A stretch of 40,299 nt of DNA, from the IMG/VR virus record IMGVR_UViG_3300009168_000073, positions 1 through 40,299 of that record. One strand, written 5' to 3'. Numbering within the stretch: position 1 is the stretch's first letter; each line of letters begins with the position of its first letter. The notes beneath the pieces were generated by a model that saw only the letters and a list, made by a program, of their open reading frames with translations, made no database searches and was not told the DNA's origin. The stretch comes from a virus. The position numbers and the translations under genes were made by a program. Positions 1,426 to 34,738 of the stretch are shown here, one piece after another.

Positions 1426-1953
1426 ATGTTACAGCGATCCCCCGAGACGCTTTCCGCTCTGGAGGAAGCGATATGCTCGAATGCGGGCGACCTGACACGG
1501 GCCTGCCACTCCCTAGGCATAAACCCGAGGGAACTGCACCAGTGGACGCTAGCTGACCCCTCTATACAGGCTGCAATCAAGACGGCACAGATGATCGGAT
1601 GGGCTTCCTTGGAGTCCGAAGCATACAGAAGGGCAGTGCTAGGTGTAGAGGAAGATGTGTATTACCAAGGTGAGGTAGTAGGCAAGAAACAAGTATACTC
1701 AGACGGCTTACTAGCCACTCTCCTTAAAGCACGGGTGCCGGGGTTCGCCCCGGAGGAACAGAAGGCTGGTGTCACGGTGAACGTCAACCTGATGCCAAGA
1801 GCCAGTACCTATGAGGAATGGCTGGACCACAAGCAGGAAGCTTTAAAGCAATTAACGACCGATGTACAGGATGCTGAGTATGAACCTGTAAGTGGTGCAG
1901 CCAAGGCGGCGTACGAAATAATGAAGCCACCGGGGTTACGTGATGTTCTCTAA
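1426..1953 (+). CDS. terS: Terminase small subunit (probable)
   Basis: The 175-residue protein has the layout of small terminases that bind the packaging site. An N-terminal helix-turn-helix-like segment (residues 5-40, with the phrase NPRELHQW) is followed by a motif around residues 80-105 (GEVVGKKQVYSDGLLATLLKAR) that recurs in phage small terminases. It sits first in the rightward arm, 1.3 kb before the large subunit, rather than directly next to it. The start uses AAGGA about ten bases upstream. The C-terminus is L-R-D-V-L, a tail shared with four replication proteins. A generic DNA-binding protein is the alternative. Confidence 0.75.
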   Translation: MLQRSPETLSALEEAICSNAGDLTRACHSLGINPRELHQWTLADPSIQAAIKTAQMIGWASLESEAYRRAVLGVEEDVYYQGEVVGKKQVYSDGLLATLLKARVPGFAPEEQKAGVTVNVNLMPRASTYEEWLDHKQEALKQLTTDVQDAEYEPVSGAAKAAYEIMKPPGLRDVL

Positions 1954-2050
1954 GAACGACGGATTGGACCCCGGATGGGCAGGGTGCAGCTACATGGTGT
2001 TGTTGCTGCTAGGGCTGGCTGTGCTGGTGAGTACGATCTACTATGACTGA
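1943..2050 (+). CDS. Tiny single-helix membrane protein
   Basis: A 35-residue frame starts inside the last codons of the small terminase gene and ends in ATGACTGA, so its stop overlaps the next start. After a polar N-terminus with GLDPGW comes one hydrophobic helix (about residues 17-32, YMVLLLLGLAVLVSTIYY). A topology or lysis role (holin-, pinholin- or amurin-like) is possible because no standard lysis genes are seen elsewhere. It is read directly from the sequence, and no strong ribosome binding site is visible, so expression may depend on coupling. Confidence 0.55.
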   Translation: MFSKNDGLDPGWAGCSYMVLLLLGLAVLVSTIYYD

Positions 2051-2156
2051 GCCTGATCCGGACCCCGGCAGGGGTGTCATAGTGATGCTGATAATGATGG
2101 CAGTGGCTATCGTGGCTGTCATAGCAGGGCTGTTTGTAGCAAGTGAGGGAGGATAG
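2043..2156 (+). CDS. Tiny single-helix membrane protein
   Basis: A 37-residue frame overlaps the preceding tiny gene by eight bases (ATGACTGA) and ends one base before the next ATG. A short acidic, proline-rich head (TEPDPDP) precedes one long hydrophobic helix (about residues 12-33, VIVMLIMMAVAIVAVIAGLFVA). Together with its neighbour this makes a pair of coupled one-helix proteins in the late operon, an arrangement seen for holin/antiholin pairs. Function not assigned. Confidence 0.6.
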   Translation: MTEPDPDPGRGVIVMLIMMAVAIVAVIAGLFVASEGG

Positions 2157-2157
2157 T

Positions 2158-3279: not shown

Positions 3280-4771
3280 AGTATGGGAACCTCAACCCGG
3301 ACCACAATCCTTAGCGGTGTCAGCCCGCTTTGTATTGGAATTGCTGTATGGGGGTGCGAGGGGCGGGGGGAAATCGAGTTACCTTCTAGGGGACTATCTA
3401 CAGGACGTAGAGCAGGGAACGGGGTGGGCCGGTATCTTGTTCAGACGGAGCTATCCGGAACTGGAGGAACTGGTAAAGCAGTCCAAGGAAATGTACTTAC
3501 CGTTGGGGGCGACTTGGAAGATATCGGATCGCACATGGACGTTCCCAACGGGAGCTACTTTAAAGCTCCGCCATATTGATAGCGAAGAAGATGCGAACTT
3601 GTACCAAGGCCACGAATACGCGTGGATCGGGTTTGACGAACTGGGCAACTGGCCTAACCTGAACAGCTACAAGAAACTTAAAGCATGTTTGCGTAGTACT
3701 GACCCCAAGGTGAAGTTCCTGCGTATACGTGCAACAGCTAACCCCGGTGGCCCCGGACACCATGAAGTCAAGAACTACTTTATAGATCATTTCCCGGCAG
3801 GCTTTAAACTACTCACCACCGCCGAGGGTACTACCCGAATGTTCATCCCTGCGAAGGTGACGGACAACAAGATACTACTGAATAACGATCCCGGCTATAT
3901 CGCCCGACTACGCGAGGTCGGCAGTCCTGAACTGGTCAAGGCTTGGCTTGAAGGTGACTGGAATGTTATTACAGGCGCGTACTTCCCCGAGTTCTCTACG
4001 GCAGAACACTGCGTTGACCCCTTCGTTATACCGGCCCACTGGATGCACTTCATGTCTGGAGACTGGGGTAGTGCCTCACCCTTCTCATTTCATTGGCACG
4101 CCGTCAGTGATGGTACGGTATCTATACCTGATACAAGAACTAATCCCCTATCATTTGATGGCAAGTACAAGTATCCCCGACTTATTCCAAAGGGTGCGAT
4201 TGTTACATATCGAGAGTGGTACGGTGCTGTGCATGGCATGGTCAATACTGGACTTCGATGGCCTGCTTCCCGTGTCGCACAAGGTATCCTAGCTAGGACT
4301 CCTGCCCATGAGAGAATTACGTATAGGGTCTTGGACCCTAGTGCTTTTAAGCAAGACGGAGGTCCAAGCCACGCCGAGGTCATGGCGCGGGCGGGAGTAT
4401 TTTTTAGGCCCGCTGACAATACGCGGTTGGCCGGGTGGGGTGCAATACGTGAGAGACTTACGGGGATCGACGCGGACCCTGATGTTAATCAAGGCGTCGG
4501 TATCCCTATGTGGTACTGCTTTAATACTTGTCCGCACCTGATACGGACGTTGCCTACGCTACAGCATGATTTAAAGGACCCTGAGGACTGCAATACAGAT
4601 GCGGAGGACCATGCGCCGGATGATTTACGGTATGCGTGTATGTCTCGCCCGTGGACCAGACCAAGGCCCAAGCCGCCCGAAGCGCGCTACAAGACATTGC
4701 AACAGGCTACGCTTACTGACCTCTTTAACGACCGTCAGAATGCTATTGCAATGAACCAATACGGGGCGTAA
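3272..4771 (+). CDS. terL: Terminase large subunit (ATPase-nuclease)
   Basis: This is the DNA-packaging motor, 499 residues. The N-terminal ATPase shows Walker A GGARGGGKS (residues 27-35), Walker B AWIGFDE (117-123) and the coupling motif ATANPGG (154-160). The C-terminal RNase H-like nuclease begins at MSGDWGSASPF (Asp264) and ends with the acidic cluster AEDHAPDDLRYA. Length and order fit Terminase_6/Terminase_3 families. The ATG overlaps the HTH gene by eight bases. The portal follows 40 bp downstream. Confidence 0.95.
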   Translation: MSEVWEPQPGPQSLAVSARFVLELLYGGARGGGKSSYLLGDYLQDVEQGTGWAGILFRRSYPELEELVKQSKEMYLPLGATWKISDRTWTFPTGATLKLRHIDSEEDANLYQGHEYAWIGFDELGNWPNLNSYKKLKACLRSTDPKVKFLRIRATANPGGPGHHEVKNYFIDHFPAGFKLLTTAEGTTRMFIPAKVTDNKILLNNDPGYIARLREVGSPELVKAWLEGDWNVITGAYFPEFSTAEHCVDPFVIPAHWMHFMSGDWGSASPFSFHWHAVSDGTVSIPDTRTNPLSFDGKYKYPRLIPKGAIVTYREWYGAVHGMVNTGLRWPASRVAQGILARTPAHERITYRVLDPSAFKQDGGPSHAEVMARAGVFFRPADNTRLAGWGAIRERLTGIDADPDVNQGVGIPMWYCFNTCPHLIRTLPTLQHDLKDPEDCNTDAEDHAPDDLRYACMSRPWTRPRPKPPEARYKTLQQATLTDLFNDRQNAIAMNQYGA

Positions 4772-4810
4772 AAGGCGTCGGAGCCAAACCGCTTGCGCCT
4801 AGGGGATCGC

Positions 4811-7156
4811 ATGGCTACCGCCTCGAAATCTGACTATCCGCCGAAGTCGAAAGACACGCCGCCGACGAACCGGCGCGAGTTCTGGATGGAACAGGTTTCC
4901 AAGGCGAACAAGCGGTGGGATACTTTTCAGACAGACGGTGAGGCAGTAATCGACCGTTTTGTACTGGAAGGTTCTCGCGGGGCTGATAAGTATAACATCT
5001 TGTACTCCAGTACAGAGACGATCAAGCCTAGCCTGTACGGGCAGACCCCCAAGGTCCAAGTCAAGACCCGTCAGCAGGACACGGAGGACTCTTTAAAGGT
5101 CGCGGCAGCAATGCTGCTTGAACAGGTCGGTCAGTATGCGGTAGACATGCTGGACTTCGATTATGTACTCCAGAATGCTGTATCCGATTACTGCCTGCCG
5201 GGGATGGGCAGTGTATGGGTTCGGTACGATCCCAAGTTTGAACCAATATACGACAACGACAACAAGCCTGCGAAGAATGAGGACGGTTCCAATAAGGAAC
5301 AGGTGACATTCGAGGGCTTGGCGCTCGATTATGTACACTTTAAAGATATCCTGTTCGGGCCGGGGCGGTACTGGCATGAGATACCGTGGGTAGGTCGCAA
5401 GGTCTATTTTACCAAGGCAGAGGCCAAAAAGCGGTTCGGTAAGGAAAAGGCCGATGAGCTTGCGTATACCTACAACGCTCAGGACCGTAAGGATAAGAAA
5501 GATGAGGCCCCAAAGCGGCAAGCGGTCATATACGAGATTTGGAACAAGGAGGAAATGGAGGTTGTCTGGTATTCGGAGGACTATCCTAACGATGTACTGG
5601 AGACAAAGAACGACCCCCTGCGTCTTACTGACTTTTTCCCATGCCCGCGTCCAATGCGCGCTGTGTGGACGACGCGGAGCTTTGTGCCTAAGGCCCTGTA
5701 CAGTCAGTACAAGGCACAAGCAGCAGAGCTTGACCGACTTACGGAGCGTATTAGGTACTTAACGGAGGCTTTAAAGGTACGCGGGCTATACGACGGTTCC
5801 CAAGAGAACCTCGCCAACGTACTGGATGGACCGGGGAACAAGATGATCCCGGTACAGGATTGGTCGTCTTTGATGGGCAACGGTGGCATTGTGGGCAGTG
5901 TCCAGTGGGTGCCCATCAAAGACGTAGTGCAGTGTCTTACAGAATTGTTCAAGCAGCGTGAAATCTGTAAGAACGAGATATACGAGATTACTGGTTTCTC
6001 GGACATTGTGCGGGGGATCAGTAAGGCGTCGGAGACGCTAGGCGCACAGCAGATCAAGGCGGATTGGGCAACAGGACGCCTTAAAGATATGCAGCGCGAA
6101 GTGCAGCGGTTTATACGGGATATCATTCGGCTGTTCATTGAAGTTGCGGCAGAACACTTCAATGAGAAGTCGTTACTTCTGTATAGTGGGCTACATATTC
6201 CCCCTCCGACGCCGCAAGAAGTACAGATGAAGCAACAGTACCCGCAAGCGGTACAGGCGGCACAGATGCAGGGTCAGCCGCCGCCCCCGCCGCCGCCACC
6301 TACGCAGGGTGAAGTTGTACGGCAAATGTTCTCGGCGGTTGTAAAGCTCGTCAAGAAAGAGAAGCTGCGTTGTGCTGCGGTCGGTATAGAAACCGATAGC
6401 ACGATCCTGCCGGATGAGCAGAAAGAGCGTCAAGACAGGATGCAGTTCCTGAATAGCATGGGTGCTTTTCTACAGCAGGCAGCACCGCTTGCCATGCAGT
6501 ACCCGGATATGCGGGGCTTGCTTGGTGGCATTATGATGTTCACTCTCCGCACGTTCAGCGCCAGTAGACCGCTGGAGAAGGAATTTGAGGAATTTCAGAA
6601 GAAGCTGGCACAGCAGCCGCCCATGCCGCCTCCGGGGCAAGAGGATCAGAAGGGTAAAGCCGAAGCTGATAAGGCGCGTATACAGGTGGAACAGCAGAAG
6701 GTGCAGCAAGCGGGTCAAAGTGAGCAGCAGCGGCTACAGGCTGATCAGGCTACAGCGCAGCAGAAGCTACAGGCTGACCAAGCTGCGGCAGCACAATCCG
6801 ATGCTACGAAACGCTATGAGATAGATCAGCGTACTGCCAATGAACGCTTTAAAGCACAGCAGGACCATGAGTATCGTATGCGCCAGTTACAGCTTGAAGA
6901 AGATAAGATCGAACTGGAGCGTACCAAGCTCGGGCTTGAGACTATTGACAGTGAGCGTACAGTTGATTTAGAGCAGGCCAAAGAGGCGAGGGAACAGGCG
7001 GCTCAGGAGGCAGCAGAGGCGGCTCAGAGGCAGGATCAGGCGGTTGATCGGGACCTTACCGATGAGCGCGAACACCGCAAGTTGGACATTCAGGAAAAGT
7101 CTGTACAGGACAAAGCGAATGCCGCTAAAAAAGGGAACAAGCCGAAAAGTGATTAG
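4811..7156 (+). CDS. Portal protein (P22-like)
   Basis: The 781-residue protein follows the large terminase and has the size and pattern of P22-type portals, which form the dodecameric DNA gate of the head. Typical N-terminal phrases are [20 protein letters not shown] and [15 protein letters not shown] middle region with [14 protein letters not shown] resembles the portal core. From about residue 600 a long glutamine/alanine-rich coiled coil extends to the end, matching the extended barrel of P22 gp1. The ATG at 4811 with AGGGG upstream is preferred over a TTG at 4793. Confidence 0.88.
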
Positions 7157-7283
7157 CCGCAACATTGAAGAAATGGTAGCGGCGGGTCATCCTCGGGATC
7201 AGGCAGTAGCGGCTGCTTTAGAGACTGCACGTAAGAGCGGCGCGAAGATACCGCACAAGCGGTTTACAGGAAACAGGCGCTAA
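7119..7283 (+). CDS. Small basic conserved phage protein
   Basis: The 54-residue product begins [20 protein letters not shown] and continues [20 protein letters not shown], a pattern common to a small phage/prophage protein family of unknown function found near head genes. It is strongly basic. The start lies 38 bases inside the end of the portal gene, with AGGA upstream, and the stop forms TAATG with the next gene. Longer in-frame starts lie deep in the portal gene and are unlikely. Confidence 0.75.
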
Positions 7284-7666
7284 TGGACGACCTTTACGAG
7301 TTCTCTCCAGATTACATAGGCCGTAAGGTTTACGTATCTGTACGAGGGCACTCACGGTCGATCCCACGTTACAAGACGTATAGGGGGGCTGATGGGTATA
7401 ATCATATTCACCCTGATTTTGGCGGGAGTTGGGATGGCCTTGGGCAGATAAGCGCGTATATCTTGCCAGACAAACAGCCATACAAGTCTCCGCTTGACGG
7501 GAGCTATGTTACAAGTCGTTCGACGCACAGAGAGCATATGCGGAAACATGGTGTGATCGAAGCAGGTGATATGGTTCCCGGCAGTATGACCCGTGATCGT
7601 GACGTACACCCTCCGGTATCGGGGCGTGACATTGCCGAAGCGATCCGTCACATAGAGAGGCTTTAA
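7283..7666 (+). CDS. Hypothetical head-region protein
   Basis: The start ATG overlaps the preceding stop (TAATG). The 127-residue protein carries DGSYVTSRSTHREHMRKHGV followed by IEAGD, a phrase I associate with small proteins encoded between portal and scaffold in P22-like and related podophages. The N-terminal half is rich in aromatic residues and glycine (PDFGGSWDGLGQ). The molecular role is unknown; a minor head protein is likely from position alone. The stop abuts the scaffold start inside CTTTAAATG. Confidence 0.7.
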   Translation: MDDLYEFSPDYIGRKVYVSVRGHSRSIPRYKTYRGADGYNHIHPDFGGSWDGLGQISAYILPDKQPYKSPLDGSYVTSRSTHREHMRKHGVIEAGDMVPGSMTRDRDVHPPVSGRDIAEAIRHIERL

Positions 7667-8851: not shown

Positions 8852-8863
8852 GAAGGTACGGTA

Positions 8864-9832
8864 ATGGTTACTCCGAACGTGTCGGAAATCGTCACGACGA
8901 CCCTTGAACACCGCAGCAAAAAGCTCGCGGATAACGTGACAAAGAATAACGCACTTCTCGCTCGGCTACAGGCAAAAGGCAAGATCAAGCCTGTCAGCGG
9001 CGGTACGCGGATCATTCAGGAACTGGAGTATGGGGAGAACAGTACGTTCACTTGGTACTCCGGATACGATACCCTGAACATCAGCCCCAGTGACGTACTG
9101 ACGGCGGCTGAGTTTGACTGGAAGCAGGCTTCGGTGGCTGTCACCATGTCTGGTCTGGAAGAACTACAGAACTCCGGACAGGAAAAGCTGATCGACCTAC
9201 TGGAAGCTCGGATCAACAACGCCGAAAAGACCATGAAGAACAAGATGGCGGCAGCTATCTACGGCGATGGTACGGCGGCTTCTGGCAAGGCAATCGGTGG
9301 CCTTGGTCTACTAGTGTCTGATACTGGCGCCGGCATTGTCGGTGAGATTGATGCCGGTACATGGACGTTCTGGAAAAATCAGACGTTCGATGCGACTACT
9401 GACGGTACGGCGGCGGCAACGTCCGCGAACATGCTGAACTACATGAACCGCATGTGGATCAAGCTCGTACGCGGTACTGACCGTCCTGACCTGATCGTGG
9501 CCGACGATGCGTACTACATGCTGTACTGGGGCGCTCTGCTCCCGAACCAGCGGTTTACGTCATCGGGCATGGCTTCCTCGGGTTTCGAGAGCCTTCGGTA
9601 CATGAATGCAGACGTTGTGTTCGACGGCGGTATAGGTGGTGCGGCTCCGGCCAACCATATGTACTTCCTGAATACCGACTACCTGTATTTGCGGCCTCAC
9701 ACTGACCGCCAGTACGTGCCGCTGTCGCCGGATCGCTACACGAACAATCAGGATGCGTTCGTGAAGCTGATCGGGTGGGCAGGCAATATGACCACTTCGG
9801 GACGCAAGTTCCAAGGGGTCCTGAAAGACTAG
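8864..9832 (+). CDS. Major capsid protein
   Basis: The 322-residue protein follows the scaffold and has a typical coat composition, without cysteine and with many alanine, glycine and aromatic residues. Phrases such as GGTRIIQELEYGENSTFTWY, DWKQASVAVTMSGLEELQNS and RGTDRPDLIVADDAYYMLYW are of the kind seen in the HK97-fold coat proteins of proteobacterial phages. AGGAAGG lies just upstream of the ATG. A strong hairpin directly after the gene fits the need for much more coat than the following proteins. Confidence 0.88.
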   Translation: MVTPNVSEIVTTTLEHRSKKLADNVTKNNALLARLQAKGKIKPVSGGTRIIQELEYGENSTFTWYSGYDTLNISPSDVLTAAEFDWKQASVAVTMSGLEELQNSGQEKLIDLLEARINNAEKTMKNKMAAAIYGDGTAASGKAIGGLGLLVSDTGAGIVGEIDAGTWTFWKNQTFDATTDGTAAATSANMLNYMNRMWIKLVRGTDRPDLIVADDAYYMLYWGALLPNQRFTSSGMASSGFESLRYMNADVVFDGGIGGAAPANHMYFLNTDYLYLRPHTDRQYVPLSPDRYTNNQDAFVKLIGWAGNMTTSGRKFQGVLKD

Positions 9833-9868
9833 TACCGCGCAGCCTAGTCCGCTCGGCGGATACTGGTG

Positions 9869-9914
9869 CTGTGGGGGCTGGATTTTGGTTTGGCTTCCTT
9901 GCCAGCCCCCACAG
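9869..9914 (+). terminator. Strong hairpin after coat gene (attenuating terminator)
   Basis: CTGTGGGGGCTGG (9869-9881) pairs perfectly over 13 bp with CCAGCCCCCACAG (9902-9914), leaving a 20-base loop. The tail TTACTTT is only weakly T-rich, so partial termination or mRNA 3'-end protection is more likely than full arrest. Its position between the coat and the next late gene suits dosage control. The loop contains the complement of AAGGAAGCCAA, a motif found in several leaders. Confidence 0.7.
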
Positions 9915-9934
9915 TTACTTTAAAGGAGTTCAGT

Positions 9935-10603
9935 ATGGATAGCATGACAGAAGGCATGATGAAGGGACCGGATGGTACGATCCTACGGTTCTTCTACGAT
10001 CCTGCCAAGAATGATGTGGCCTCGGTAGCAGAGGGCCGTGCTATCTTTGATACTGTCCTCTACGTCGATGTTATCACGCCGGGGCAGAAGTCCAGTACAC
10101 CGCGCTTTGAACTGGAGCGTGTGTGGAGCGAGCCTTCAAAGCGTGTCTTGGGTACACCGGCGCTCTCCAAGAAATCTCACAAGTACGAGTACTATCGTGA
10201 GCAGATCGAACAGTTCAAGCGGAACGAGCATGTAGGGGACCTAGGTGGAACCCCTTTAAAGTATTGGCCGCAAATAGACCGTGGCCTTGCCGCCACTCTT
10301 ATGGCGGCGAATGTGTATACGGTAGAACAGCTTGCTGGATTGTCGGATGCCAACCTTGATGTAGTTGGTATCGGGGCGCGAGAGCTTCGAGAGCAGGCTA
10401 TATCGTTTCTTGCACAGGCAGGGCAGAATGCGCCTGTATCGGCACTTACGGACGCCAATTCCAATCTCGTTGTTGAGAACCAGCGGCTTACTCAGGCGTT
10501 GGCACTCGCCAATCAGCAACTTACAGAACTGAACCGGCAGATTGAACAACTGACCGGTAAGCCAACGCCAGAGAAGAAGCTGGTAGATATTACTCTCCCG
10601 TAA
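9935..10603 (+). CDS. Virion-region protein with HhH-like and coiled-coil segments
   Basis: The 222-residue product starts at ATG 9935, preceded by AAAGGAG; an upstream GTG frame would translate the hairpin. Residues 1-90 look like a beta-rich domain (GTILRFFYDPAKNDVASVAE). Residues 125-160 (ANVYTVEQLAGLSDANLDVV, then GIGARELREQA) resemble a helix-hairpin-helix. Residues 175-210 form a coiled coil (NQRLTQALALANQQLTELNR). Similar proteins follow the coat gene in other podophages. Head decoration or connector assembly is possible but unproven. Confidence 0.75.
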   Translation: MDSMTEGMMKGPDGTILRFFYDPAKNDVASVAEGRAIFDTVLYVDVITPGQKSSTPRFELERVWSEPSKRVLGTPALSKKSHKYEYYREQIEQFKRNEHVGDLGGTPLKYWPQIDRGLAATLMAANVYTVEQLAGLSDANLDVVGIGARELREQAISFLAQAGQNAPVSALTDANSNLVVENQRLTQALALANQQLTELNRQIEQLTGKPTPEKKLVDITLP

Positions 10604-10613
10604 GGATACAGCC

Positions 10614-11336
10614 ATGTCGTTGTTCACTATTGTCAAGACAGTAATGGACAGCAATGGCTGGCCTTCGCCTGTAGTTGGCGTTTCGGCCTCGCAGGACCAG
10701 AACATGCGGCAGAGCATGGCATTGGCGAACCTTGCTTTAAAGAGTACGTCCTTCAAGCACAACTGGCCGCACCTTATACGGGAGCACCGTTTCGATACCA
10801 TCGGCGGTGAAGGTACGTACGATTTGCCGGATGACTTTCATCATATGGTCGTACCATCTGCGGTGGATGCAGGGCAGTACTACCAGCTACGGGGTTCGCT
10901 TACGCCGCTCCAGTGGTACAGGAAGTCTTTAAATGGTGGCGTTGATTGGGGTAACGGGTTCCGGGTGGACCTATCCAGTGCGCTCGGCGGGATCGGTAAG
11001 TTTCTGGTAGCGCCTACTCCCGGTAGTCCGATGGACTTGGTGTTCATGTACATCACGCGTAACATTGCGTATGATACGGGCAGGAACCCACGGGACGCAT
11101 ATTATGAGGATGGGGACAGTGCGGCGATAGATGAGGACCTAGTACAGTTAGGTCTGTCATGGCGCTGGCGGCAGAAGAAGGGCCTCGACTACACGGCTGA
11201 AATGGCTGAGTACAGTGGTACCATGAAACAGCGGATCGCGCAGTACATGGGTACTGGTGAACTACCGATAGGTGGTAAGTTTGACAGCATGTGGCCTTTA
11301 ACGCAGGGCCGTATACCTGACGTAATTGGAGTGTGA
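10614..11336 (+). CDS. Head-tail connector protein (P22 gp4-like)
   Basis: The 240-residue protein fits the first head-completion/tail-adaptor protein of P22-like phages, which docks below the portal. Marks are the helical N-terminus, the phrase EHRFDTIGGEGTYDLPDDFH and the C-terminal WRWRQKKGLDY segment followed by YMGTGELP. It lies before the gp10-like gene as in P22 relatives. Stop and next start are one base apart, with GGAG upstream of the next ATG. Confidence 0.75.
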   Translation: MSLFTIVKTVMDSNGWPSPVVGVSASQDQNMRQSMALANLALKSTSFKHNWPHLIREHRFDTIGGEGTYDLPDDFHHMVVPSAVDAGQYYQLRGSLTPLQWYRKSLNGGVDWGNGFRVDLSSALGGIGKFLVAPTPGSPMDLVFMYITRNIAYDTGRNPRDAYYEDGDSAAIDEDLVQLGLSWRWRQKKGLDYTAEMAEYSGTMKQRIAQYMGTGELPIGGKFDSMWPLTQGRIPDVIGV

Positions 11337-11337: not shown

Positions 11338-12903
11338 ATGCTCTACGAAGGTATCAATGTCAATACGTCTCAGAAATCTGAAAGCCATACTATCGTTGCT
11401 CCGGTAGGTGGCCTTAATGGCCGCGATGCTTTAGCGAATATGGCGGAAGTCGATGCATACGAAATGGTAAACTTGTTTCCCGGTACAAGTACTTGTGTAG
11501 TGCGGGAGGGTTGTGAAATACATCAAGCACCTGTCGGTGCGCCCGTAACGTCTTTAGAGACATTCGCCAGTGGTACGGGACAGAAGTTGCTTGCGTTTGC
11601 TGCGCCGAATGTCTGGAACGTGACGGTTAAAGACGTAAAGACTAGCCTTAAAGCAGACTTAGTACAGGACGCTGTTGTAGCTACCATGTTCAGCACGGTA
11701 GCAGACGCGGCGCAGTTTCTTATCGTCACTACTGGATCAGACACGCCATTCCAATATAATGGTACAACGATCACGAACCTTGCGTTGACAGGGTTAGTGC
11801 ATGGGGACATAGCACAGAAAATCAATTTTGTCTGTAACTACAAGCTACGGCTCTACTTCGGTATTGAGGGACGGCTTGGTTTTTATTACTTGCCTCCGGG
11901 GGCTATACAGGGTGCTTTGGAGTGGTTCGACCTCGCACAGTTATCACATTATGGCGGGTATCTGCAAGCTATTGCGACGTACTCGGAGGATGCCGGTGCT
12001 GGCCCCGATGACTATATCATATTCATTACAAGTCGCGGCGAATGTATAGTCTTTAATGGACTTGACCCCGGTGATGCGGCGGCGTGGGATATAGTTGGTC
12101 GCTATAAAGCCGGTGCGCCTATCGGCAAGAAATGTGTATGGGACTATGCTGGTGACTTGCTGATACTGACTTCCGAAGGTGTACAGCAGTTCTCGGCAAT
12201 CAAGAAGCTGGCAGATACGCGTTATGAGGCGACGGCGCTTTCAAGCAAGCTCGGTGACATACTGTTGGACCTTAATGTAAACCGTGACATACACGGTTGG
12301 TCTATGATAGTATGGCCGTCTGGCGGTAAGCTAGTAGTTAATGTTCCTGCTACCACGACGCGACTAGGCGCGTATAAACATTTCGTGATGAACACGACTA
12401 CGCAGGCGTGGACAGTATTTGATAGCAGGGAGTGGGACGCGCAGTGTTTCGGTGTCTTTGAGAAGAAACTGTATTTCGGGCGCTATGATGGTTCGATCCG
12501 TGTAGTGCAGGGTACATACGATAACGGTGAGTCTATAAGTTTCCATGCCAAGCAGGCGTATAACTACTTTAAAACACCCCAACGCAAACAGTTCCACTGG
12601 GCGCAGTTCTTGGTCAAGTCGGAAGCGGAGGTAGCTCTAGCTTCCCGGCTGTCTGTAGACTTCATCGAGAACACTCCGGTAACTGAGCCTAATCCGCTAG
12701 GGTCGGGCGGCGGTGCTGAATGGGATATCGCGTACTGGGATCAGGACTATTGGGGCTATGGTCCATATACACAACGCTGGATAGCTCCGTATGGGAATTA
12801 CGGGATTGCGGCTTCGCATTGGCTTACTGGTCAAGTAGCAGGAGCTACTTTCGAGTGGTACTCGACTGAGCATGTTTTCCAGAAGGCAGACGGATTACTA
12901 TGA
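11338..12903 (+). CDS. Tail-completion/DNA stabilisation protein (P22 gp10-like)
   Basis: The 521-residue protein has the signature of P22 gp10-type packaged-DNA stabilisation proteins: GGLNGRDALANMAEVDAYEM, then VNLFPG near the N-terminus, then a repetitive beta-rich body resembling a propeller (FITSRGECIVFNGLDPGDAA, ILTSEGVQQFS, FGRYDGSIRVVQG) and a C-terminal beta domain. It would extend the hollow tail below the gp4-like ring. ATG 11338 is preceded by TTGGAG. The stop overlaps the next start (ATGA). Confidence 0.8.
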   Translation: MLYEGINVNTSQKSESHTIVAPVGGLNGRDALANMAEVDAYEMVNLFPGTSTCVVREGCEIHQAPVGAPVTSLETFASGTGQKLLAFAAPNVWNVTVKDVKTSLKADLVQDAVVATMFSTVADAAQFLIVTTGSDTPFQYNGTTITNLALTGLVHGDIAQKINFVCNYKLRLYFGIEGRLGFYYLPPGAIQGALEWFDLAQLSHYGGYLQAIATYSEDAGAGPDDYIIFITSRGECIVFNGLDPGDAAAWDIVGRYKAGAPIGKKCVWDYAGDLLILTSEGVQQFSAIKKLADTRYEATALSSKLGDILLDLNVNRDIHGWSMIVWPSGGKLVVNVPATTTRLGAYKHFVMNTTTQAWTVFDSREWDAQCFGVFEKKLYFGRYDGSIRVVQGTYDNGESISFHAKQAYNYFKTPQRKQFHWAQFLVKSEAEVALASRLSVDFIENTPVTEPNPLGSGGGAEWDIAYWDQDYWGYGPYTQRWIAPYGNYGIAASHWLTGQVAGATFEWYSTEHVFQKADGLL

Positions 12904-23574: not shown

Positions 23575-25187
23575 TAAAGTACGTCCTCTAGCTTCTTGTT
23601 CAGTTCCTCAATGTCGCGTACGTTCCAGCCCCGGAGGTCCTGATACTTGCGGAGCGCAGCCCTGAACTTTGTTTGTGTATCGCCTCGCTCACGGTAAGTC
23701 ATAAGCATCAAGTCATCCACTGTCTTGTTTGCTACTATATGATGGATGCCTACAATGTTCTGCTGACCGCTACGGGCGATCCTAGCGTTGGTCTGCATGT
23801 ACTTCTCTAGGCTCCATATCTGGCTGAACCATATGATATGGTGGCCTCCCATCTGTGCATTGATCCCATGCCCCGCCGACTGCGGGTGTAGCAGCATGAC
23901 AGGCAGCTTGCCGCTGTTCCACAACTTGAGCATCTGCTCAGAGTTTTTACTGGTCAGTAGCCCATGACTGATACCGGCTGTATTTAAAGCATTCACTATG
24001 CGTTCTTTGTCGGCCTTGAAGTGATATGTCACAATCACGTTATTGTCGATCATGTCGATCAACTCTACCAGCTTCACTAGCTTGTAGTCGTGCAAGTGTT
24101 CAGTAACATTATACCCAAAGTCGTCGTTCTTGTATATGAAGCCGTTAGCCATCTGGTGACAGAGCATGGATTTAGCCCCGCCGTTTGCGGCCATTATGAA
24201 GTCCTTGCCCAGTTCTATTAAAGCCTCTCGCTCCATCTTGTCGTAGAACTCCCGTATGTGTACAGGAAGCTCTATCTTGTGTAGGTGGCTCTCGGGTATG
24301 TCCGTTTTGCTGGCGTCACCTATGGTAGCAGGCAGTACGCCGTAGTCCTCTGCCGATAGCTCTACTGTAACGTCTGCGATCAGTTCGTGTATCTTGACAG
24401 GTGCGCCGTCCTTGGGCATCCACTCTGGACGTACTTCTAGCTCGTCAGGCTTGATTTCGGTACGCCATACATGGTCAGCTACCTGTCCTGCCTTGTAGAA
24501 GAACCGCTCTTTATACGTGTCAAAGTTCTCATGTAGTCGCTTACCGTGGTCAACGATGTACATGGGTGCCCATAGGTTCAGTAGCGAGGTAGGGGCGGGT
24601 GTCCCGGTCATAATCACGGTGCGCTTGAACTTGTGCGGGCCTACCCGAATGACCTTACCATCGGGGTCCTTTAAAGACTTTCCATCTTCACCCTTGATCG
24701 TGTGCCGATCACCGTAGTTGGACAGCAGCTTGAACCGCTTGCTGTTGTGGGCCTTGAACATGGAACTTTCATCTACGACCAGTACATCGAAGCGATCCCA
24801 ACTATACCGAAGCTCTTTAAAGAGCCACTCCAGAAGCTCCGGGTTGACCAGATAGATATGTGCGGGGCGGTACAGGGCTAGCCGTCGTTGCGGTACGGTC
24901 CCGCGCAGCAGGCTGAACTGGAGCCACGTTGTACTGCTCCAGCCAGCGGCTTCCTGCCTCCATACGGTGTTACAGACAGCTATCGGTGCTACGACCAGTA
25001 TAGGCTTCTCTATCTGCCGCCAGTTGATAAGGTCTACTAGCCCTTGTAGTACGGCGAAGGTCTTGCCCAAGCCCATGTCAACGATCACAGCAGTACCGTC
25101 GCCGCTGTTACCAGTGAATACCTTGTGCGCCGTACGCATCTGGTACGGGCGGGCAGGAGCGCCGTCTATGAGCCGGTACGGGATCAT
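23574..25187 (-). CDS. SNF2-type DNA helicase/translocase
   Basis: The 537-residue SF2 enzyme shows motif I DMGLGKT (37-43), motif Ia near LVVAP (64-68), motif II VVDESS (137-142, a DEAH variant), motif III MTGTPAPTS (193-201) and motif VI around QTNARIARSGQ. Between motifs II and III is the SNF2-like FKAHNSKRFK. Such proteins accompany family A polymerases, VRR-NUC and DUF2815 proteins in many phages and are thought to remodel forks or recombination intermediates. GGAG lies eight bases before the ATG. It ends L-E-D-V-L. Confidence 0.9.
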   Translation of the reverse strand: MIPYRLIDGAPARPYQMRTAHKVFTGNSGDGTAVIVDMGLGKTFAVLQGLVDLINWRQIEKPILVVAPIAVCNTVWRQEAAGWSSTTWLQFSLLRGTVPQRRLALYRPAHIYLVNPELLEWLFKELRYSWDRFDVLVVDESSMFKAHNSKRFKLLSNYGDRHTIKGEDGKSLKDPDGKVIRVGPHKFKRTVIMTGTPAPTSLLNLWAPMYIVDHGKRLHENFDTYKERFFYKAGQVADHVWRTEIKPDELEVRPEWMPKDGAPVKIHELIADVTVELSAEDYGVLPATIGDASKTDIPESHLHKIELPVHIREFYDKMEREALIELGKDFIMAANGGAKSMLCHQMANGFIYKNDDFGYNVTEHLHDYKLVKLVELIDMIDNNVIVTYHFKADKERIVNALNTAGISHGLLTSKNSEQMLKLWNSGKLPVMLLHPQSAGHGINAQMGGHHIIWFSQIWSLEKYMQTNARIARSGQQNIVGIHHIVANKTVDDLMLMTYRERGDTQTKFRAALRKYQDLRGWNVRDIEELNKKLEDVL

Positions 25188-26359: not shown

Positions 26360-26388
26360 GCTGTGACCTTTAAAGTACCCCTAGGGGT

Positions 26389-26617: not shown

Positions 26618-28747
26618 TTATTTTGAATATCTTTCCATTGACTTTACCTCGGCGTCGAGCGGAAGTCCCGCCGTCCAAGTTGGTAGGTCTAGGAGGGCTT
26701 GCTTTAATTGTCGCTTTCTTTCTTCTACAAAATTATCGTCGCCCAGACTGACAATTTCATCGTGTATAAGTGCGAAGATATTAAATTCCGCAGCATCAGC
26801 GTTATTAGCACCTATACACATGATGTCGCGGGCGATGCCCTGTACCATGTTTTCCACAAGCCGTCCCCCATACGTCTGTTCGCGGTAACTCTTACCCATC
26901 CATTCAGTCCGGAAGGTAAGCATGGGTTTGCCCCATTGGTTGAGTGTGTCCGTTTTGGGGCGATAGTAAGCGATGTGCCTGCCACTTGGCAGTGTACACA
27001 AAAGCCACCACCTTTCGCTGTCGATACGGTGTACATGGTAGGTAACTGTAGTACCGTAAAGCTGTACCGTCTCACCTTCTCGCTCCACTGCCTTTATAGC
27101 GCACCAGTTAGCGCGGCTCCACAGCCCGCTATTCCAGTCGCTTATTTCCGGATACGCCGATCTGTACGCGTCAATAGTGAATTGGGCTTCGTCGAGGTCG
27201 ATGATGATATCCATGTTGTCGCAGTATTCGAGGAACCCAAGCGCCCCCAGTTGAAACCCACAACCCAATACAGCAGACTTAGCGCGCTGTCTTTCGTCTG
27301 CCAAACTTGGTACGATCTTACCATCTGCCCCGAAGTAATCACTGTACTGCCTTCTATACATATGATCCGCAGCGAACCTAACATAAACATCTTCTCCCGC
27401 CGCATATGATTTCAGTAACGTCTCACAACAAGCCAGCCATGCTAGTACACGGGCTTCAATCTGTGAGTAGTCTCCTGATAAGATTACCTTACCGGGGGGT
27501 GCTTGGATGAACCCCCTCATACTGTGGGCTAGTGCTTTTAAAGGCCGCGGAAAGTACAGGTCGGCTGTCTCGACCCATGCGGGGAGTCCGCTTGGTCCAA
27601 GGCCCCCGTGCCAGCACCCGTTTGCGAAGTACCGGAACGTGGCAGCGGCCATTCGTCCGTCTCCGCGAATGAAGTTATGGGGCTGTACACGTTTGGCGCT
27701 AAATCTACCAGTGTGCGCGCCGTAGTATACAAACAGTCCACGAGCGTACCCATCTGTGCTTGTGTTAGCCCGCATACTTTCAAGTTTCTTGACACTCGCC
27801 CTTGCGCTATCGAGGCGGATATTGATAACGTCGCGTAAATCTTCGGGGAGTTCATTCTGTGTGATCCTACTCAGTGTCTTGGTGCGAAGGTTAGGCAGCT
27901 TTTCCATTTCCTCGCGTTGGTTCAGATATTCCAGTACCCTATCCCGTTGAGTTGGATTAAGCGCCGTAATTGCATTAAAGCGTTGTACAGCATGTTGGGA
28001 ATAGTGGTCAGAGAAGTGTATAGCCTTGCCGACACTATCGAGGTCAATAGGGATACCATGCGTGTTAATGCGGAAGTCCAAATCCCAAACCTGTTGCTCG
28101 AATTGCGGTAGGTCAGGGAGTATAGCGTCAATACCGGCCTCAGTCTTGGCATCCATGAGACAGTAATGTACACCATCCGACCACCTAAATGGTAGTTCGT
28201 AAGGCTCTGCCCATAGCTGAGTAATAATACCATTTTTCTTCGGCCCCTTATACTTGCGCGGTATGCAGAACGTATTGATGAACGCTTTACCTTCCTCAGT
28301 CTGCTTTTGTATCGGTAGCTCTAGGTCCGATCCCGCACCCTCTAGGCTTGCCCGTAGTCCCCAATAGCGCGCTCTGGCGGCGGTGCAGGACCAGTGCTGT
28401 GGCATAGGCCAGCCCCACCGCTTATGACAAATCCAGTACCAAATGTCTTGCTCGAAACGAGCGTTATGTGCGACGAATACCGCATTGTCTTTAATGGCCT
28501 TGTCTATTTCATACGGTATTACTGGAGCATAGGAATGTAGGAAAGGATCATCCTCAGTAGCACAGTTAGGATAACTACTGTTACGGTAGCTCTTATTATT
28601 TCCCATGAAGTCGTAGACAGTTTCACAAGTCCCCCATATGAACGCAAGCATTAAAGGGCTTGTCGTCCAATGCTGTGCATAGATAGTGGACCCCCGCGTA
28701 CGGAGGTCCACAGTACTACGCGTTTCAAAATCAACGTGGGCGCGCAT
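26618..28747 (-). CDS. DNA polymerase, family A, with 3'-5' exonuclease
   Basis: The 709-residue replicative polymerase has an N-terminal DEDD exonuclease (HVDFETRS with Asp6 and Glu8; FVAHNARFE around 91-99; YCLMDAKTE around 195-203). The polymerase domain has motif A VILSGDYSQIEARVLAWL (Asp426), a motif B region ERQRAKSAVLGCGFQLG (485-501) and motif C FALIHDEIV (His662-Asp663-Glu664). No 5'-nuclease is present. The start overlaps the stop of the ssDNA-binding protein gene (TAATG). Confidence 0.95.
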   Translation of the reverse strand: MRAHVDFETRSTVDLRTRGSTIYAQHWTTSPLMLAFIWGTCETVYDFMGNNKSYRNSSYPNCATEDDPFLHSYAPVIPYEIDKAIKDNAVFVAHNARFEQDIWYWICHKRWGWPMPQHWSCTAARARYWGLRASLEGAGSDLELPIQKQTEEGKAFINTFCIPRKYKGPKKNGIITQLWAEPYELPFRWSDGVHYCLMDAKTEAGIDAILPDLPQFEQQVWDLDFRINTHGIPIDLDSVGKAIHFSDHYSQHAVQRFNAITALNPTQRDRVLEYLNQREEMEKLPNLRTKTLSRITQNELPEDLRDVINIRLDSARASVKKLESMRANTSTDGYARGLFVYYGAHTGRFSAKRVQPHNFIRGDGRMAAATFRYFANGCWHGGLGPSGLPAWVETADLYFPRPLKALAHSMRGFIQAPPGKVILSGDYSQIEARVLAWLACCETLLKSYAAGEDVYVRFAADHMYRRQYSDYFGADGKIVPSLADERQRAKSAVLGCGFQLGALGFLEYCDNMDIIIDLDEAQFTIDAYRSAYPEISDWNSGLWSRANWCAIKAVEREGETVQLYGTTVTYHVHRIDSERWWLLCTLPSGRHIAYYRPKTDTLNQWGKPMLTFRTEWMGKSYREQTYGGRLVENMVQGIARDIMCIGANNADAAEFNIFALIHDEIVSLGDDNFVEERKRQLKQALLDLPTWTAGLPLDAEVKSMERYSK

Positions 28748-29418
28748 TACAGAACGTCACGCATCCCAGTGCCGGGTTCTGGCGGGATAGGTGTGAACTG
28801 GCTTTTGGCGTCGGGGCGTGTAGTCCCGATCCGCTCACCGTCTGCAACCTTCTGTATGTTGTTCAGGCGGGTGCTGATGAAGTTCTTGCCCATGTACTCG
28901 GTGCCGAACATGATACCGGACACCTTACAGGTACAGCCGCTATACAGGTCCAGAGGCAGTATATCCTCATTGTTCCGCCCGACAAGCCCCGGTGCGCCGC
29001 TGTAGATGACCTGTCCGGTCTGCGGGTGCCGTGTAGCCTGTGCCTTCTGCTTGAAGTTCAGGTAATACTTGCCGAACAGGTATTCCCGTTTTTTGGTATT
29101 AAAGGCGGGGTTGTCGCCGTCACGGAAGAACGGTTCCAGATGGAAAAATGCCCCCGGTGCGTTACTCCCCGGCCATGCTTCTTCCTGCGTCTGCTTGACG
29201 AGGTTAATCATTTCCTGTAGCTCGGCTAGGCGGGTCTTTTCCCACGCCAGCGTAACACGGTATTCAGCCTCCTGTAGTCCCTGATCGTCCAGTATAGGCT
29301 TCTTCGTCTGCTCGTTTGTTTTGAGTAGCGGGCGGTCGTGGCTGGCGTGACACAGCAGGCCAATCGGTGTAATGAACTGATTGAATATAGGCTTGGAACT
29401 GTTGTTTGGATATGCCAT
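28747..29418 (-). CDS. ssDNA-binding protein (DUF2815-type)
   Basis: The 223-residue protein matches DUF2815 proteins, phage single-stranded DNA-binding proteins linked to family A polymerases. Characteristic phrases are ITPIGLLCHASHDRP, FFRDGDNPAFNTKKREYLFG and the C-terminal LYSGCTCKVSGIMFGTEYMG, then KNFISTRLNNIQKV. The tail is proline-rich and ends M-R-D-V-L rather than in the long acidic tail of many SSBs. It is coupled to both neighbours by TAATG overlaps. Confidence 0.85.
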   Translation of the reverse strand: MAYPNNSSKPIFNQFITPIGLLCHASHDRPLLKTNEQTKKPILDDQGLQEAEYRVTLAWEKTRLAELQEMINLVKQTQEEAWPGSNAPGAFFHLEPFFRDGDNPAFNTKKREYLFGKYYLNFKQKAQATRHPQTGQVIYSGAPGLVGRNNEDILPLDLYSGCTCKVSGIMFGTEYMGKNFISTRLNNIQKVADGERIGTTRPDAKSQFTPIPPEPGTGMRDVL

Positions 29419-30632
29419 TATAATACGTCCTTTAAAGCGTTTGTAGCGTTTACAGCGTCTATTGCGGTTAAAACGTCCTCCGGGGCTGCTCCGTCTATTG
29501 GTGGAAACTCCGAACCCCGTGTGTAGGGTTTCCGACCATCAATCGCTTTCTCCAGAGTAAGCGCCTGATTACTTGGCTCCAGTGCGTCGGGCGGGCATAC
29601 GTACTGCATACCCTTCAACCAAGCACTGCGCCCCTGTGGCTTGAATACGCGCTTGACTTCGCGTTCTACTCCCGCCACTGAAATAGGTTCTTTCACGTAC
29701 AGATTATCTTCCGGTACACCCAGTTCCTTAAGGTTCTGGTATACGGCCTGTCTGGCCTTCTCGTCTTTAAAGGCTCTGTCCTTCTTGGCCTTCACGATCT
29801 TGTAGCCAGCTATCTCTCTGTTCTGGTGCAGTATCCGTCTCATGGCCTCGCCGCGTAACTGTTCGCGCCAGCCCTGTAGTACGTCTGCTTCGTCTAGCGC
29901 CTGTGACAGTTGCTCGTCTGTCATAGCTATAGACTGACCGGGATAGTAAGCGAGCTTTAAATTCTCCTGCGCCCATCCTAGGAATACGTTACAGGTGCCT
30001 CTCGCGGGGCAGTATGTCTCCCGACAATGCTTGCCTGCTACTATCGCATTGCTATGTAGCGCGCTAGCGACCTCCTGCCTGAACCATGTAAGGTCATCCT
30101 CAGTAACGTCCTGTGACCGGATCATACCATCGGCATGTACGTAGTTCGGCTGGATCACTGTAATCTTGTACTGTCTCCGTTCCCCATGCTTGGCTATAAG
30201 GCCCAGTAAGTAGAGCAGCAGTTGTGGGTTCATACGTATATTTACGGGGACGTACCCATTCTTGTAGTCGATGACATGGATTAAAGACGGCGTTATAAAC
30301 CCGATATCTAAAGTACCGAACTCGCCAGTCTCGGGTATCTCTATGGTTTCCTCGCATACCAGTTCACACCCTCCCTTGCCCTCTCTGTATTGCTTGTACA
30401 GAGGCAGGATATACTCAAGTGCCATTGAGACACCCTGCACGATATCAATGTCAGGGTGATTAGGTGTTACGCCAAAGGTGACTGCATCCACTAGTAGCTC
30501 ATGCGATACAGTGCCTTTAATGCTTGCCTCGCTATCGGGGTTGTCGTAGCCCAGTAGTACCTCCGGAGAGCCGGGACATGACAGCCACCTATGCGCGGCT
30601 GACGGGGGCCTAAGTTTAGCGTGACCTATCAT
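29418..30632 (-). CDS. DUF2800 RecB/Cas4-like nuclease
   Basis: The 404-residue protein matches DUF2800, a PD-(D/E)XK exonuclease family. Catalytic candidates are His44 in KGTVSHELL, Asp109 in GTLDIGF and Asp122-x-Lys124 in HVIDYKNGYVPV. Four cysteines (19, 203, 208, 214; SCPGS and CRETYCPARGTCNVF) are spaced as in Fe-S cluster nucleases (Cas4/AddB). It probably resects DNA for recombination with the adjacent ssDNA-binding protein. AAGGAAG precedes the ATG. It ends L-K-D-V-L. Confidence 0.85.
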   Translation of the reverse strand: MIGHAKLRPPSAAHRWLSCPGSPEVLLGYDNPDSEASIKGTVSHELLVDAVTFGVTPNHPDIDIVQGVSMALEYILPLYKQYREGKGGCELVCEETIEIPETGEFGTLDIGFITPSLIHVIDYKNGYVPVNIRMNPQLLLYLLGLIAKHGERRQYKITVIQPNYVHADGMIRSQDVTEDDLTWFRQEVASALHSNAIVAGKHCRETYCPARGTCNVFLGWAQENLKLAYYPGQSIAMTDEQLSQALDEADVLQGWREQLRGEAMRRILHQNREIAGYKIVKAKKDRAFKDEKARQAVYQNLKELGVPEDNLYVKEPISVAGVEREVKRVFKPQGRSAWLKGMQYVCPPDALEPSNQALTLEKAIDGRKPYTRGSEFPPIDGAAPEDVLTAIDAVNATNALKDVL

Positions 30633-30854: not shown

Positions 30855-30870
30855 GTGACCTTCCTCCCCT

Positions 30871-31128: not shown

Positions 31129-31145
31129 TACCATTCTCCTTCCTA

Positions 31146-31161: not shown

Positions 31162-31176
31162 CCTGTAGTGGCCTCC

Positions 31177-31974: not shown

Positions 31975-32017
31975 TTTAAAGCACTCCTATGTGCAGGGGT
32001 GGTTTGGCTTCCTTCTC

Positions 32018-32404
32018 CTATATGATACCCTGCGGTTGCGCCGGTGCAGGCTGTGTAGCAAACTGCTGGATGACCTGCGAGAACCGAGTATAAAGTTCCG
32101 GCAGTTGGTCGGGGCGGGCTTCGGGCAGGCGGGCAATACCCATCTGCGAAAGCACCTGAGAAAGCTGGCCCTTCAAGGCCGCGTTGTCAAGGTGCGGTTC
32201 AATCAGGCTCATCACCTGTGCCTCAGTCACCTGAGCGGGCTGTGCAGGCGCTGCCGGGGCCGCTGCGAACGGATCAACGGGCTGCTGTAGCTGCGTCTGC
32301 GGAGGCTGTGCAGGAGCCTGTTGGCCTGCACCAGTAGCACCGCCGTTGAGCAGTCCCTTGATAATCTGTAGGTCGGCGTGGATTGCTTCGAGAATACCAG
32401 TCAT
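32018..32404 (-). CDS. Hypothetical protein with Pro/Gln/Ala linker
   Basis: The 128-residue protein has a short helical N-terminus (MTGILEAIHADLQIIKGLLN), a proline/glutamine/alanine-rich linker (26-60) and a helical C-terminal domain (EAQVMSLIEPHLDNAALKGQ, then LSQVLSQMGIARLP). AAAGGAAG precedes the ATG. It directly follows the primase-helicase gene and may be an accessory factor, but no family is recognised. Confidence 0.7.
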   Translation of the reverse strand: MTGILEAIHADLQIIKGLLNGGATGAGQQAPAQPPQTQLQQPVDPFAAAPAAPAQPAQVTEAQVMSLIEPHLDNAALKGQLSQVLSQMGIARLPEARPDQLPELYTRFSQVIQQFATQPAPAQPQGII

Positions 32405-32422
32405 ATTACTTCCTTTGCTTCC

Positions 32423-34738
32423 TTAAAGTACATCGGGCAGATTATTTACTACAGGCAAAGTCGCTGCCCCGACTAGCATGTATAGCTTATCCCTGATATT
32501 ACGGGCGTCCTCATGTATAATCCCCATATTGTTCATATACTTAAGTCGCCTCAGTATAGCTTGATAATTTATGTTCAGACGAGCTTCTAACTCACGGGCG
32601 CGTAGCCCCTGCGGTTCGTTAGCCAGTTCACCCAGTATTTTCTCGTCTGTGCGGGGGTCCTTTAAACGTCCTCCCCGCCCATCCGGCTTGGTGGCTAAAT
32701 ACTCGTCAAAGTCAGGTATCTCCATATCAGGCGGTGGCTTGACCCATGACACCCCATCCGAGATAATCGGTATCTTTTCCTTACCGAAGTCACGGCTCTG
32801 TATAATAAGCCAGTTCAGACCCTCTAGGTTATCAAACCCACCATTGGATACAAACTGTATCTGTGCATCTGGTGCGCCGCTCTGTGCTACTGATCCGCTG
32901 ATGTTGTCCATCAAGTTTCCTACACCGCGATTGCCGCCTGCCGGTCCCTTGCGGTCATGTTTGATCGACACTATCGAACAAGTATACTCAGATGCTTTAA
33001 TGATATCGTTGATTATCTCTATCTGCTCGTACTCAAGAGCGTTGAGGTTGTGCGAGAAGATAGTATGATCGTGAAACTTGTTCACTGGCTCTATCAGTAT
33101 GAACCACGGGCGGGTACTATCCTCACGTATGATGCGCTTGATTTCCTCCGCGCCTTCGCGCCCTTTCGGTAACGTCCCAATAACACCATTCTGGTTACGG
33201 CTGTCTTTGGTAAAGAACCGGAAGTGTTTAAAGGCTTCCTGCTTTTGCTCGTCCGTGACCCCACCCCACTTAGCCTCTAAGTTGTAATACTGTTCCCACA
33301 GCTTGCGCCGGAACCGCTCGTCGGTTTCTTCCAGCGCGCAGAACAGTACGTTACATAACGTAGCGGGGCGGTCCCATATAGGCTTACCAAATAACAGGTG
33401 CAGGCACATGGCGTACATTAAAGTACTCTTGCCTAGCTTGGCAGGCGCACTCAGTACGGTGTGCGTGTTCTCCGCAATGAACCCCCGTACAGTAAATGTC
33501 ACTGGACGTACTGGTTCATGCATTACATCGGCAAATGTACGTGCCTTAGCGAATGGGGTTGTGTCCCCGCCCATAAGCTCCGGGGGCATGGTGACAGGAG
33601 CCTGTATCAGCTTTCCCTCAAACTCATGCAGGGGGAGGTTCAGGCAGAGCGCCAGTGACTCCGCTGCCTTCCGTTTGTCCCCATCATGGTTGATTTCAGC
33701 CAGTAAGCTAATCGGTGTACGCCTGCCTTCCGTGGCGTCTCCCATGTCAGCTACACCGAAGTCTTTAATGCCCTTGTCATTTATACTGATATCTTCTTCA
33801 AGGGGCCTGCCTATGTCTCGGCTGGCTATCCTGTAGTCGTCGCCACTAGGGCGGGCTACATGACCCAGGAGGTTCGCTACCCAATCGTGCTTACGCGCCC
33901 TAGCGGCTAGGTTCAGGGGCCGATACATCGCTTCGTCAGGGGGATACTCCCCGCGATACTTTGAGCCTGTACGGGCCGTTTGCGGGGCTTGGGGGACACC
34001 ATAGTAAGACACCATGCGCCGGATCGTGTCGGCATGGAGTACGTCCATCGGATCGAAGTCGCGTATCAGTCGGGATCGCCTGTGCGGGCGCTCTTTGGTG
34101 TGTTCACCCTTGCGGGCTGCTGTACCGACTACGCGCTGTATGCGGGCTGCATTAAAGACTGTCTTATCTATCGTAACAGTCGGAGTACTGAACCGACTAT
34201 CTAGCACTGAGAGAGTTGCTTTAATGAGGTCCGTGGTATCCTGATCGTTAGGTAGCGGTTCCAGCACGTAACGAGCGTGTCCACCGTTACCGGAGTCTAC
34301 TAAGCAGGGAGTGGGAAAGCCATGCAGGAAGGTCAGGCGCTCTGTAATCTCCTGCATGTACTGGAGCGCAAGCTCATGCTCTGCGTCAGTGCTGGAGATA
34401 CCGCTTATACGTACTGGATCGAAGTCCAGTAGCATCCCTCTACGTTCCAGTATCTCGCGGTCACTGGTGAAGCTGCCACGGCTTGCAGCTACCATGTGAT
34501 TGCTACAGCGGGCAAACGCCTCGGGCATGACAGGATTGATTGTAACGTACGTGCCGCCTATGCCGTCATTGTCGGAGTTGACGATAGCATTGGCTGCTAG
34601 TACAGGATCATTAAAGTACCCTGTGCTGGCGAGGCCCCTGTAGGCCGTTAAAGCACGTATCTCAAAGATTTGATTGGGGAGCGGGAAGGCCCATCGCAGG
34701 CTTTTATGCACAGTGTCATAGTCCGGAGGGACTAGCAT
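32423..34738 (-). CDS. Primase-helicase (AEP-like primase + RecA-fold helicase)
   Basis: The 771-residue protein combines two activities. Residues 100-210 carry the archaeo-eukaryotic primase pattern: LLDFDP with Asp105/Asp107, VDSGNGGHARY (147-157) and DKTVFNAARIQRVVGTAARK (191-210). Residues 415-600 are a RecA-fold motor with Walker A APAKLGKST (431-439) and a Walker B-like stretch PWFILIEPVNKF. The C-terminus has a winged-helix-like segment (GLRARELEARLNINYQAILR). The start has no clear ribosome binding site. It ends L-P-D-V-L. Confidence 0.85.
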   Translation of the reverse strand: MLVPPDYDTVHKSLRWAFPLPNQIFEIRALTAYRGLASTGYFNDPVLAANAIVNSDNDGIGGTYVTINPVMPEAFARCSNHMVAASRGSFTSDREILERRGMLLDFDPVRISGISSTDAEHELALQYMQEITERLTFLHGFPTPCLVDSGNGGHARYVLEPLPNDQDTTDLIKATLSVLDSRFSTPTVTIDKTVFNAARIQRVVGTAARKGEHTKERPHRRSRLIRDFDPMDVLHADTIRRMVSYYGVPQAPQTARTGSKYRGEYPPDEAMYRPLNLAARARKHDWVANLLGHVARPSGDDYRIASRDIGRPLEEDISINDKGIKDFGVADMGDATEGRRTPISLLAEINHDGDKRKAAESLALCLNLPLHEFEGKLIQAPVTMPPELMGGDTTPFAKARTFADVMHEPVRPVTFTVRGFIAENTHTVLSAPAKLGKSTLMYAMCLHLLFGKPIWDRPATLCNVLFCALEETDERFRRKLWEQYYNLEAKWGGVTDEQKQEAFKHFRFFTKDSRNQNGVIGTLPKGREGAEEIKRIIREDSTRPWFILIEPVNKFHDHTIFSHNLNALEYEQIEIINDIIKASEYTCSIVSIKHDRKGPAGGNRGVGNLMDNISGSVAQSGAPDAQIQFVSNGGFDNLEGLNWLIIQSRDFGKEKIPIISDGVSWVKPPPDMEIPDFDEYLATKPDGRGGRLKDPRTDEKILGELANEPQGLRARELEARLNINYQAILRRLKYMNNMGIIHEDARNIRDKLYMLVGAATLPVVNNLPDVL

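Follow-up and report, generated by a model that had tools for sequence, protein, structure and literature searches.

The stretch analysed here, called the window, is the full 40,299 bases of one virus record from an uncultured phage, IMG/VR record IMGVR_UViG_3300009168_000073, in which a simple codon model called the 48 genes used for counts of gene ends. Five of these genes, encoding the small terminase subunit (TerS) and four replication proteins, end in one C-terminal pentapeptide, [LM]xDVL, in which x is variable. These genes are as follows:

1426 to 1953, plus strand: small terminase subunit (PHROG 4044 terminase small subunit, E 1e-17), ending LRDVL (1936-1950; stop 1951-1953).
23574 to 25187, minus strand: SNF2-type helicase (Pfam SNF2-rel_dom and Helicase_C), ending LEDVL (23577-23591).
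28747 to 29418, minus strand: gp2.5-type single-stranded DNA-binding protein (SSB) of the DUF2815/Enc34 family (PF10991; PDB 4klk and 4jg2), ending MRDVL (28750-28764).
29418 to 30632, minus strand: DUF2800 protein, exonuclease-like (PHROG 69), ending LKDVL (29421-29435).
32423 to 34738, minus strand: primase-helicase of the AAA_25/RepA type (PF13481), ending LPDVL (32426-32440).

A preliminary description of the window had claimed this common tag on all five proteins, and each end was found at the stop of the gene named, the small terminase carrying the same peptide as the replication proteins. The 15-base intervals it gave lay at the right gene ends but covered the last four residues and the stop, with the pentapeptides starting one codon upstream. 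Its codons for the last two residues (GTT CTC, GTA CTT, GTT CTG and GTA TTA) were read correctly, and the primase-helicase ends in GTA CTT again. Given the composition of the window, 0.0013 [LM]xDVL ends were expected among the 48 genes against the 5 seen (binomial P ~3e-17, for a motif chosen post hoc), and the motif does not occur inside the window proteome. As this motif had been chosen with the data in view, chance was also tested with no motif fixed in advance. Of the window's gene ends, 5 carry identical residues at the same three of their five final positions; random internal 5-mers, drawn 20,000 times, never gave 5 such ends and reached 4 only twice. The tag survived this permutation test, which had been named beforehand as a possible refutation.

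When viral contigs were searched with the SSB, polymerase, SNF2 helicase and large terminase, 18 related records emerged, several of them near full length, whose polymerases are 48-73% identical to that of the window. No relative of the window was found in a bacterial genome collection, and the nearest database phages reach ~33% identity in the polymerase and ~43% in the large terminase. Gene ends were read family by family in the relatives, and a polymerase tree supports their grouping into three clades. A short hydrophobic C-terminus is nearly always kept by TerS, the SNF2 helicase, the SSB and a 224-residue early protein; the terminal residue of TerS is Leu in 15 of 15 relatives, and the SSB ends hydrophobic in 18 of 18.

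TerS and the SNF2 helicase are unrelated proteins with genes ~20 kb apart in the window, and their ends are alike inside each clade. Both tails take the form LxD[VI]L in the window's clade, with the TerS/SNF2 pairs GLRDVL/KLEDVL, VLKDIL/VLKDIL and GMPDVL/KLEDVL; PLEGLGL in the second clade, with the pair NPLEGLGL/NPLEGLGL; and Fx[GD][IV]xL in the third, where the pairs include PFAGIEL/PFAGIDL, AFQGIEL/SFGGIEL and PFKGIDL/PFGGITL. The eight identical residues NPLEGLGL that end both proteins in record G014 are written in different codons. Beside these three clear types there are two weakened lineages (G004; G016 with G002). Over their six terminal residues, TerS and SNF2 had a BLOSUM score of 17.5 within genomes versus 3.9 after shuffling genomes (p 5e-5), and a control stretch, residues 13-18 from the end, showed no signal (-5.7 and -5.4). 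The score of the ends was 18.5 between genomes of the same clade and -4.5 between clades.

That the last residues are kept while the rest diverges was borne out in the relatives, with a similarity of 0.16-0.20 in the linkers versus 0.43-0.51 in the last five residues. The SNF2 alignment runs from a conserved body through a linker variable in length and sequence to a conserved end. The tail of DUF2815/Enc34-type SSBs is a known interaction segment, and in Enc34 ORF6 16 of the last 29 residues are acidic (PMC5686142). The SSB of the window belongs to the same family but has the acidic tail swapped for a hydrophobic end; over the final 25 residues the net acidic charge is -2 to +1 for the clade's 18 SSBs versus a median of +5 in 51 distant SSBs. 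Judged by their sequences, the SSBs of the clade have lost the acidic tail of the family and bear a short, nearly neutral hydrophobic end instead.

Further genes of the window that bear on the distribution of the tag are given below:

35059 to 35733, minus strand: 224-residue early protein, function unassigned, ending ADGIL (relatives mostly LPSIL).
32018 to 32404, minus strand: 128-residue early protein, possible carrier of a related end, ending QGII (relatives mostly -SII).
35819 to 36163, minus strand: 114-residue protein, candidate carrier on weak evidence, ending LLDLL.
26618 to 28747, minus strand: family A DNA polymerase (PF00476; PDB match), untagged, ending ERYSK; negative control and candidate for a common docking partner, or hub.

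The 224-residue protein ends in L or F in all 14 relatives; its model is helical, no significant relative of the fold was found, and the tail is disordered (predicted local distance difference test, pLDDT, <50 at residues 220-224). The 128-residue protein ends in I or M in 16 of 16 relatives, and a gene of the virion region (9935-10603) resembles it in that its relatives often end PII, SII or DII. For the 114-residue protein, a post hoc pattern was matched in the window only, its relative in G004 ending KPELF. The DUF2800 protein ends hydrophobic in 15 of 17 records and has the tag or a similar end in most relatives, the primase-helicase is tagged only in the window's subclade (LPDVL, LPDLI, LIDIL, LPDLD), and in the third clade there are several short proteins ending LPDIL or LPDLL. 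Regular expressions for the tag, written after the data were seen, matched 59 ends over 19 records versus ~0.1 expected per genome, and these matches fall on TerS, replication proteins and small unassigned proteins, none of them on recognised virion proteins. The tag is absent from the polymerase, large terminase, VRR nuclease and virion proteins. The polymerase, with a Klenow-like model (predicted template modelling score, pTM, 0.76), has RY[SG]K or a similar sequence at its end in 19 records, and its terminal residue is hydrophobic in 1 of 19 relatives. As to gene order, a block of DUF7192, CobS-like AAA and SprT-like genes lies between the early genes and TerS in relatives (G001, 38702-41500); it had no match in the window (35733-40299), perhaps because the block is lacking there or because the right end of the window is incomplete. 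A short tandem repeat, with open frames that read repeated GWLA or SQPA, occupies the right end of the record (40135-40299).

The ends of unrelated proteins change in step among relatives, which suggests one common partner, and it is likely that one C-terminal docking motif gathers replication proteins and the small terminase on a common hub. From the shared ends we infer docking, a single pocket, exchange and a link to packaging. The motif would be approximately [LMF]-x-[DSG]-[IVL]-(x)-L-COOH, carried on a flexible linker, and a single pocket would receive its free carboxylate together with two or three hydrophobic side chains. The SSB, SNF2 helicase, DUF2800 nuclease, primase-helicase, 224-residue protein and TerS would in this way attach to one replication-fork hub, the use of one pocket would let them exchange there, and packaging would start on newly made DNA through hub-docked TerS.

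Several observations weigh against this proposal. The joint change of TerS and SNF2 goes by clade and not by genome, so that there are few independent states, about three. The preliminary description had looked to orthologues to keep the tail; this failed in part, for the DUF2800 protein in G001, G004 and G012, for the primase-helicase outside the window's subclade and for the SNF2 helicase in G002. G004 is without any match to the tag patterns, and outside the window's subclade the SSB, DUF2800 and 128-residue proteins follow TerS and SNF2 only loosely. Finally, the tag has neither the acidity of the T7 tails nor the Gln of the clamp motif.

The alternative that survives best, although we consider it unlikely, is that there are two look-alike tags, TerS and SNF2 docking on one partner and the SSB, DUF2800 and small early proteins on another, such as the polymerase, with the resemblance confined to the window's subclade. 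TerS and SNF2 of the third clade indeed end Fx[GD][IV]xL, the SSB, DUF2800 and 224-residue proteins ending TVL, TIL or LPSIL, and DUF2800 shows no joint change with TerS (p 0.51) or SNF2 (p 0.27) and some with the SSB (p 0.02). However, clamp pockets accept both pentapeptides and hexapeptides (PMC11139829), so two forms of the tag need not mean two partners. All five ends are the same in the window, and the SSB does change jointly with TerS (p 0.002) and with SNF2 (p 0.006), these p values being uncorrected for many pairs. Docking on a common hub is the reading we prefer.

Short C-terminal peptides are also known as degrons, and one end common to several unrelated proteins would suit a degradation or stability signal read by a host protease or adaptor. 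The carriers, however, are replication and packaging proteins, no reason for their joint turnover was found, and in the SSB the tag occupies the place of the family's usual interaction tail; we regard this explanation as improbable. Still less credence is given to a signal in the DNA where one gene meets the next, whether for translational coupling, for ribosome binding or as stop context. Overlap of a gene with the following start is frequent, and SNF2 and TerS often end CTA TGA or TTA TGA, which would give an ATGA overlap and may favour CTA and TTA as the last codon in some of these genes. Nevertheless, all six Leu codons and all three stops are used at tagged ends, the SSB ends mostly in CTG or CTT with TAA, and upstream of the final codon the amino acids are conserved although their codons vary. 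A DNA signal fails to explain such variety and was rejected on that ground. The same peptide is written in different codons, so selection acts on the peptide and not on the DNA, as had been proposed at the outset, and the differing codons leave duplication of a gene end unsupported. Coincidence is hardly credible, for although Leu is a frequent residue and patterns are easily seen in a list of 48 ends, chance as the origin of the shared ends was ruled out by the permutation test, and the joint change in relatives and the doubled NPLEGLGL of G014 speak against it.

The most unusual point is that the packaging initiator bears the same tag as the fork proteins. More tentatively, and with a little less than even confidence, we propose that TerS carries the phage's ticket to the replisome, the same exchangeable peptide as the SSB, helicase and nuclease, that packaging starts on the hub, and that hub and tag co-evolve as a private code specific to each clade. 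Among large-terminase relatives at <= ~57% identity, no such end was seen on the genes upstream of the large terminase. A limited literature search turned up no relevant publication describing a tag shared in this way, although one may exist. Outside T4, little is understood of how the packaging machinery locates newly replicated phage DNA, and a single peptide on TerS and the fork proteins would offer a direct handle on this link. Unassigned early proteins could likewise be linked to the replisome through their terminal residues.

Shared ends were also seen in distant phages. In the cultured and distant Rhodoferax phage P26218 (L137, NC_029061), 3 of 44 genes end DDLL, namely the SSB (4737-5342), gp05 (1919-2821) and gp15 (10603-11181), and none of 5,000 random draws gave three. 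Here gp05 is a weak relative of the window's 128-residue protein (E 0.0016). The annotation of gp15 as a terminase small subunit is probably wrong, since its P-loop, GTNGSGKST, makes it look like a nucleotide kinase, and it was therefore left out of the terminase evidence. In L295 (MW202557), the SSB (14811-15431) and a 293-residue protein (12303-13184), apparently a relative of P26218 gp05, end DDLL. The SSB shares its end with a different protein of the same locus in L045 (FDPLA; 6725-7333 and 9191-9805) and in L093 (DIFK; 5396-5959 and 9352-9954), and in L094 the SSB ends SLFD and the DUF2800 protein SVFD; these three cases could be the same habit in distant phages. In the SNF2-related phages L159-L208, DDFLS or a like sequence is a frequent SSB end and the DUF2800 protein next to it ends near ADFKED, and the two may hold a shared acidic DF end. 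Overall, sharing of the SSB end in distant phages was 0.34% within loci versus 0.15% across loci, a modest excess of ~2x, and the single distant cases are therefore leads only. Shared ends such as DDLL in P26218 and FDPLA in L045 suggest that phage interaction networks might be read from gene ends.

As to the identity of the hub, the host beta sliding clamp is a possible candidate that we hold at somewhat under even odds. The phage family A polymerase is a more doubtful candidate, plausible because it is conserved, untagged, of family A and adjoining a gp2.5-type SSB, and the rest of our expectation falls on another host or phage protein. A bacterial-type clamp gene was found in none of 10 phage records of the clade, the window included, in a search whose controls worked, and a phage-encoded clamp of this type was rejected as the hub. 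A search for T4-type clamps gave no match, yet its controls were silent too, which makes it uninformative.

Docking of several proteins through similar ends has precedents. In T4, gp43, gp55 and gp33 dock on the clamp gp45 through C-termini that resemble one another, can be interchanged and follow divergent linkers (PMC2988020), and the terminase contacts gp55 (PMC9026906). The likeness lies in hydrophobic C-termini on several unrelated proteins preceded by divergent linkers, those of T4 being acidic as well; the difference is that here TerS itself, the SSB, the helicase and the nuclease are tagged, the polymerase is untagged and the search for a bacterial-type clamp gene found none. In T7, the polymerase is the binding partner of the helicase tails (PMC8472574), and the gp2.5 and gp4 system on gp5 is matched here by a gp2.5-type SSB with a family A polymerase (PF10991, PF00476, PDB matches and the Klenow-like model). 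In contrast to T7, the tails described here are not acidic, end in Leu and are also found on TerS and the SNF2 helicase.

Motifs that bind the beta clamp are pentapeptides or hexapeptides (QL[SD]LF) that slightly favour Asp at position 3 and end in L or F, and the only natural ligand without Gln cited in a review is the delta subunit, AMSLF (PMC11139829). The canonical clamp motif was ruled out for the tags, in which the Gln of position 1 is missing and L, M or F stands in its place. Position 2 is not regularly aliphatic, being mostly R, E, K, P, G, Q or A, and position 4 is V, I, L or M, where the clamp motif calls for Leu or Met. The tags are nevertheless like clamp motifs in occurring in both lengths, in the common [DS] at position 3, in a hydrophobic position 4, in the terminal L or F and in their frequent place at a free C-terminus. 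The free C-terminus of Pol IV, which binds the clamp, reads QLVLGL (PMC11139829), close to the LEGLGL of the second-clade tails.

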